Source: Syntrophorhabdales bacterium
Lineage (GTDB): Bacteria; Desulfobacterota; Syntrophorhabdia; Syntrophorhabdales; WCHB1-27
Direction: 5' to 3'
Length of the DNA: 40,688 bases
Assembly: GCA_035541455.1 (NCBI GenBank)
Contig: DATKNH010000173.1
Location: forward strand, 1-40,688
A program made the translations under genes and the position numbers. The notes beneath the pieces were generated by a model. It worked only from the letters and a program-made list of their open reading frames with translations, was not told the origin of the DNA and did no database searches. Below, in pieces: positions 31,258 to 31,763 of this stretch. Position 1 is the stretch's first letter, and the number at the start of each line of letters is the position of its first letter.

Positions 31258-31328
31258 GTCCTCGCCAGAAATTTTTTTGAAAATCGATCGGCTGTTGATT
31301 CTTGAGCAATTTAGTATTAAACTGCTGC

Positions 31329-31763
31329 ATGCGCCGGGTTGTCCTCAGTTTCTTGACGCTGCTGCTGTTCGTCCTGTCGGTTGCGCCTGTCTCTGCAATC
31401 ACCTACCAGGAAGGCGTCAGGACTGCCAAGAGCGAGAATAAGCCTCTCTATCTTTATTTTTACACTGACAGCTGACCCTACTGCCGATTAATGGACAGGT
31501 CTGTCCTAGGAGACACGGAAGTCGAAGCCCAGCTCAAGAAGGATTTTGTCTACGTTCGCATCAACGTGGACAAGTCGGATGACATCGCCAGGCTCTATGG
31601 AATAAGAGGCTACCCATCATCCTGGTTTCTGGAGCCAACCGGTGCGAGAGTTGTCGAGGTCCCGGGCTACGTAGACAAATCCCTTTTCAAGAAAGTGCTG
31701 CAGTTCGTCAAGGGCGGCTATTACAAGTCTACCGATATAAACTCCTACCTGAAGAAGCACTAG
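31329..31763 (+). CDS. Secreted thioredoxin-like selenoprotein (UxxC), read through UGA at 31473-31475
   Basis: Read with the in-frame TGA as selenocysteine, this is a continuous protein of 144 residues. Residues 1-23 are a signal peptide (MRRVVLSFLTLLLFVLSVAP, then VSA). The mature part is a thioredoxin fold: KPLYLYFYTDS, then Sec49-Pro-Tyr-Cys52, then RLMDRSVLGDTEVEAQLKKD, YVRINVDKSDDIARLYGIRG with cis-Pro YPSS, and WFLEPTGARVVEVPG. The TGA falls exactly where relatives have the first Cys of CPYC. A hairpin 17 bases after the TGA matches a bacterial SECIS (listed separately). It probably acts as a periplasmic thiol-disulfide oxidoreductase or reductase. It is a single gene divergent from groESL; no strong ribosome binding site is seen, so the exact start is uncertain (a TTG at 31302 is also in frame). 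Confidence 0.88.
31493..31506 (+). promoter_or_regulatory. Bacterial SECIS element hairpin
   Basis: GGACAGGTCTGTCC folds into GGAC/GUCC with loop AGGUCU (or GGACA/UGUCC with loop GGUC). The hexaloop AGGUCU is the same as that of the E. coli fdhF SECIS, where the GU of the loop contacts SelB. The loop begins 21 bases after the UGA, inside the known bacterial range (about 16-37). CCTA (31477-31480) and TAGG (31507-31510) could extend the lower stem across a bulge. It lies within the coding region, as expected in bacteria. Confidence 0.82.

Follow-up and report, generated by a model that had tools for sequence, protein, structure and literature searches.

The stretch of DNA analysed here (the window, 40,688 nucleotides of a Syntrophorhabdales contig) contains a thioredoxin-like reading frame interrupted by a single TGA, and the question is whether this codon ends a gene or encodes selenocysteine (Sec) in an exported redox protein. 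The latter had been proposed in a preliminary description of the locus. Analysis of the frame, of its relatives in the phylum and of the host genome points, with a probability of about 0.93, to an exported-type thioredoxin-fold selenoprotein with predicted Sec at residue 49. Table 1 summarizes the features concerned.

Table 1. Coordinates of predicted features at the selenoprotein locus (window numbering)
Feature	Position	Strand	Basis
CIRCE-like operator TTAGCAATC-N9-GATTGCCAA	31198..31224		intergenic, shared with divergent groES
Predicted Sec-containing thioredoxin-like protein, 144 residues, TAG stop	31329..31763	+	frame kept before and after TGA
Signal-peptide-like N-terminus MRRVVLSFLTLLLFVLSVAPVSA, putative cleavage after A23	31329..31397	+	sequence inspection
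Predicted Sec49 (TGA), first position of UPYC redox motif	31473..31475	+	aligned Cys/Sec column
Predicted bacterial SECIS apical hairpin GGACA-GGUC-UGUCC	31493..31506	+	model fit, comparison of Sec and Cys genes
C-terminal thioredoxin-fold part: GYP segment and conserved C-terminal tail	31554..31763	+	Pfam match, alignment

Reading frame and domain content

With the TGA read as Sec, the frame is open throughout: this TGA is the only one in frame, and no frameshift or second stop was seen between 31329 and 31763. The read-through protein begins MRRVVLSFLTLLLFVLSVAPVSAITYQEGV and includes the later segments YFYTDSUPYCRLMD and GYPSSWFLE, in the second of which P96 would, by analogy, occupy the cis-proline position. 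Pfam Thioredoxin_2 (PF13098) matches residues 33-124 across the TGA (1.8e-15, 57.6 bits against a gathering cut-off of 27), bearing out the earlier view that thioredoxin-like sequence lies on both sides of this codon; Thioredoxin_7 (4.8e-13) and PF00085 (above its cut-off) also match. The closest solved sequence is the thioredoxin 2lst (9e-11, residues 25-111), whose CPYC motif aligns with UPYC. A structure model built from three sequences has low confidence (pLDDT 50) and was set aside.

By inspection, the N-terminus is signal-peptide-like, being positively charged and hydrophobic and ending in VSA, and 9 of its 23 residues are identical in the same-genus orthologue, with the mature part more conserved. 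The suggestion that the protein is secreted thus stands as a prediction from this N-terminus. Gene callers that take TGA as a stop, as the preliminary description had pointed out, retain just 31491-31763, the last 90 residues, and drop the redox residue along with the export signal; the nine other genomes found with a Sec form are affected in the same way. The start site and promoter are uncertain: a TTG start is possible upstream of 31329, no clear ribosome-binding site is apparent, and the 27 nucleotides just 5' of the ATG (31302-31329) hold no in-frame stop and differ very little from those of the sister genome.

Selenocysteine machinery of the host

The host, probably an anaerobic bacterium, is represented by a genome of 3.9 Mb (97% complete) in which selA, selB, selC and selD, the genes proposed earlier as a check, were all found. 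SelA scores 578.6 bits (7.6e-174), and tRNA-Sec scores 71 bits (gathering score 47) with anticodon TCA. The selD gene (G000:C164:2634-3548) is itself a predicted selenoprotein gene, with a TGA near the N-terminus in an AAGUAAK motif. Two selB genes are present (G000:C116:112932-114812 and G000:C102:2058-3938). They are 88% identical over 645 residues, and the second, on a 5.2-kb contig, could reflect duplication or contamination by a related organism. Weak own-genome matches carrying TGA were also inspected and set aside: one (L003) has CGPC, is a thioredoxin of the cytoplasmic type and ends at TGA, and two others (L004, L005) have no thioredoxin-like frame on the one strand read.

Homologues and apparent Cys/Sec switching

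The orthologue in another genome of the genus, at 76% protein identity, keeps TGA at this codon. For this pair dS of 1.2-1.9 places synonymous sites near saturation, and dN/dS is low on either side of the TGA (approximately 0.09 for codons 24-48 and 0.07 for the part that follows the TGA), so that selection is acting on the two halves as a single protein. The gene was found in 29 of 46 genomes in a class-wide search, and a phylum-wide profile search recovered relatives in 79 of 395; a plasmid search gave distant Cys homologues only. The motif column, whose reading in homologues had been suggested as a further check, holds Cys or Sec in all 51 homologues read (41 Cys, 10 TGA), most having TGC or TGT at the codon in question, and the placement of the TGA at the first Cys of a CPYC-type motif is upheld. 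The ten Sec forms occur in the window's genus (two genomes), in G030/G031, in G016/G017 and in G274/G124/G181/G333, the last group belonging to another family of the phylum. Apparent stops in three homologues (TGA in G225, TAG in G121 and G050) were rejected as recoding, since each of these proteins has Cys at the motif position and the stop marks its end.

A maximum-likelihood tree, built with the Cys/Sec column masked, requires at least four separate changes between Cys and Sec, four of them forced by well-supported branches; the tree is unrooted and fits switches in either direction. SelA is above cut-off in all ten Sec-form genomes and in most Cys-form genomes as well, so that a Cys form does not imply a missing Sec trait. 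In the orthologous gene of genus g9, one species (L055) has CGYC and two (L056, L057) have UAYC, with selA in all three; the difference is a recent switch.

Across the class-level loci compared, the gene mostly has a convergent NlpC/P60 gene and another conserved gene as its neighbours, and methyltransferase and Sua5/YrdC genes follow a few genes further on. This shared neighbourhood supports orthology of the Sec and Cys forms for most of the class-level members compared. The chances are about even that four or more Cys/Sec switches took place within one phylum in a single orthologue, an exported thioredoxin-like protein whose neighbourhood is mostly kept, and that every Sec form carries a SECIS-like hairpin at matching codons. 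Such repeated switching in one orthologue group is the most interesting aspect of the locus. Should Cys have been the starting state in these switches, a working SECIS would have arisen in situ time and again from the coding sequence around M-[DE]-x-x-[VS]-[LF], and the family would be a natural series for how selenoproteins arise. Close Sec and Cys orthologues, many in matching neighbourhoods, offer a clean system for testing the contribution of Sec to an exported reductase as well as the rise of a SECIS inside coding sequence.

The SECIS-like hairpin

Downstream of the TGA lies a hairpin with a 5-bp stem and a 4-nt loop, GGUC, with 22 nt between TGA and loop. The published bSECIS model specifies a loop of 3-9 nt, a stem of 4-16 bp, a G in the first two loop positions, a distance of 16-37 nt from the UGA and a minimum free energy of at most -7.5 (PMC13188914). 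The hairpin satisfies this model, with a borderline energy of -7.5 kcal/mol for 31473-31511, exactly the limit. The free energy of this segment is no better than that of shuffles, an equally good hairpin arises somewhere in the allowed spacing in 28% of synonymous recodings of the gene, and in a longer stretch the hairpin is not the minimum-energy fold. A search of Rfam gave no family match in the window or in the TGA region.

The evidence for the hairpin rests on a comparative signal, not on energy. A hairpin with spacing of 20-24 nt (a range picked after the Sec genes had been seen) and an energy of at most -3 occurs in 10 of 10 Sec genes and 3 of 41 Cys genes (Fisher p of about 2e-8, uncorrected for relatedness, the Sec genes representing four lineages). 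In addition, the two sister genomes agree at all 17 nt of 31491-31507. The apex, CAGGUCUG, is identical to that of the E. coli fdhF SECIS (sequence confirmed as fdhF), which likewise lies downstream of its UGA; however, the spacing there is 18 nt as compared with 22 nt here, and the lower stems are unlike.

Alternatives to selenocysteine

Three other accounts of the TGA were weighed. For a true stop in a decayed thioredoxin-like pseudogene speaks mechanical ORF calling, which gives the truncated product alone, but the retention of this TGA in another genome of the genus, at dS above 1 and under strong purifying selection on both sides, its presence at the identical codon in three other lineages, and the intact frame make decay very improbable. 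An error converting TGC or TGT to TGA, for which the draft state of the assemblies and the codons of most homologues might speak, is slighter still in probability: the TGA recurs at this codon in ten genomes of four lineages, all with selA and a hairpin at the same place, and its recurrence in the second genome makes the sequencing error considered in the preliminary description very unlikely. As improbable as such an error is a genome-wide reassignment of TGA to an ordinary amino acid, which would account for open TGA codons in both this gene and selD; against it, genes close by (NlpC/P60, HAD, methyltransferase) still terminate at TGA, the genome has a complete Sec system, and no spread of TGA codons at non-Cys columns of conserved proteins was seen. 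Insertion of Sec at the UPYC motif is thus the preferred reading of the codon.

Proposed role and relation to known families

In the proposed mechanism, SelB, guided by the hairpin just 3' of the UGA, would bring Sec-tRNA to the position that begins the U-P-Y-C active site. The protein would then be exported, its Sec/Cys pair most likely serving as a thiol-disulfide reductase outside the cytoplasm, where Sec would attack a substrate disulfide (or oxidised thiol) and Cys would act as the resolving residue. A CcdA-type carrier may then pass electrons across the membrane to the oxidised selenenylsulfide; this reductase/CcdA step is somewhat favoured. A single CcdA-type membrane protein, stand-alone and 239 aa long, is encoded in the host genome and VKOR was not found there, which favours a reducing pathway, DsbB and DsbA being outside this comparison.

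A selenoprotein acting instead as an oxidase or isomerase, or in metal or peroxide handling, is possible at a distinctly lower probability than the CcdA-fed reductase: thioredoxin-fold proteins have many functions, and no obvious redox partner gene was found among the conserved neighbours. Set against this are the CcdA-type protein, the absence of VKOR from the genome (DsbB and DsbA again lying outside the search), and the best Pfam and NCBIfam hits, which include domains of thioredoxin and of DsbD-type reductases. Peroxides or metals as substrates, suggested earlier, found no support, and a role in thiol-disulfide chemistry is more likely.

A UxxC selenoprotein of PF13098, termed thiol:disulfide interchange protein, has already been catalogued (PMC13188914, PMC9312934), with WP_011366075.1 tabulated as an example (PMC13188914) and a listing for Geobacter species (PMC1794560). 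The present protein shares with the WP_011366075.1 type the Thioredoxin_2 family, the UxxC motif and an origin in anaerobic bacteria formerly called Deltaproteobacteria, a likeness at the level of Pfam family and motif. It is well supported as a further example of these catalogued Sec-containing Thioredoxin_2 proteins, not a new kind. Fold and motif type are held in common with Sec-containing thioredoxin (PF00085, UxxC), from which it differs by its signal-like N-terminus, and the match to thioredoxin proper is weak (TIGR01068, TrxA, 31.6 bits, cut-off 96.8). Local similarity to the C-terminal thioredoxin domain of DsbD and to the TsoB selenoprotein extends over roughly residues 5-125, but the present protein is stand-alone, without a membrane domain, and scores far below the full-length cut-offs (DsbD, NF001419, 32.1 against 330; TsoB, NF045694, 39 against 805). 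None of the NCBIfam models reaches its cut-off on this protein.

Upstream region

Upstream of the gene in many genomes lie a dnaA-like gene and then dnaN- and gyrB-like genes (names given from N-terminal sequences), and in the window's own family groES-groEL. The CIRCE-like repeat (Table 1) has a chance expectation of 0.02, and in the sister genome its left arm is identical and its right arm nearly so. It is probably the HrcA operator of groESL, and could influence the divergent selenoprotein gene too.
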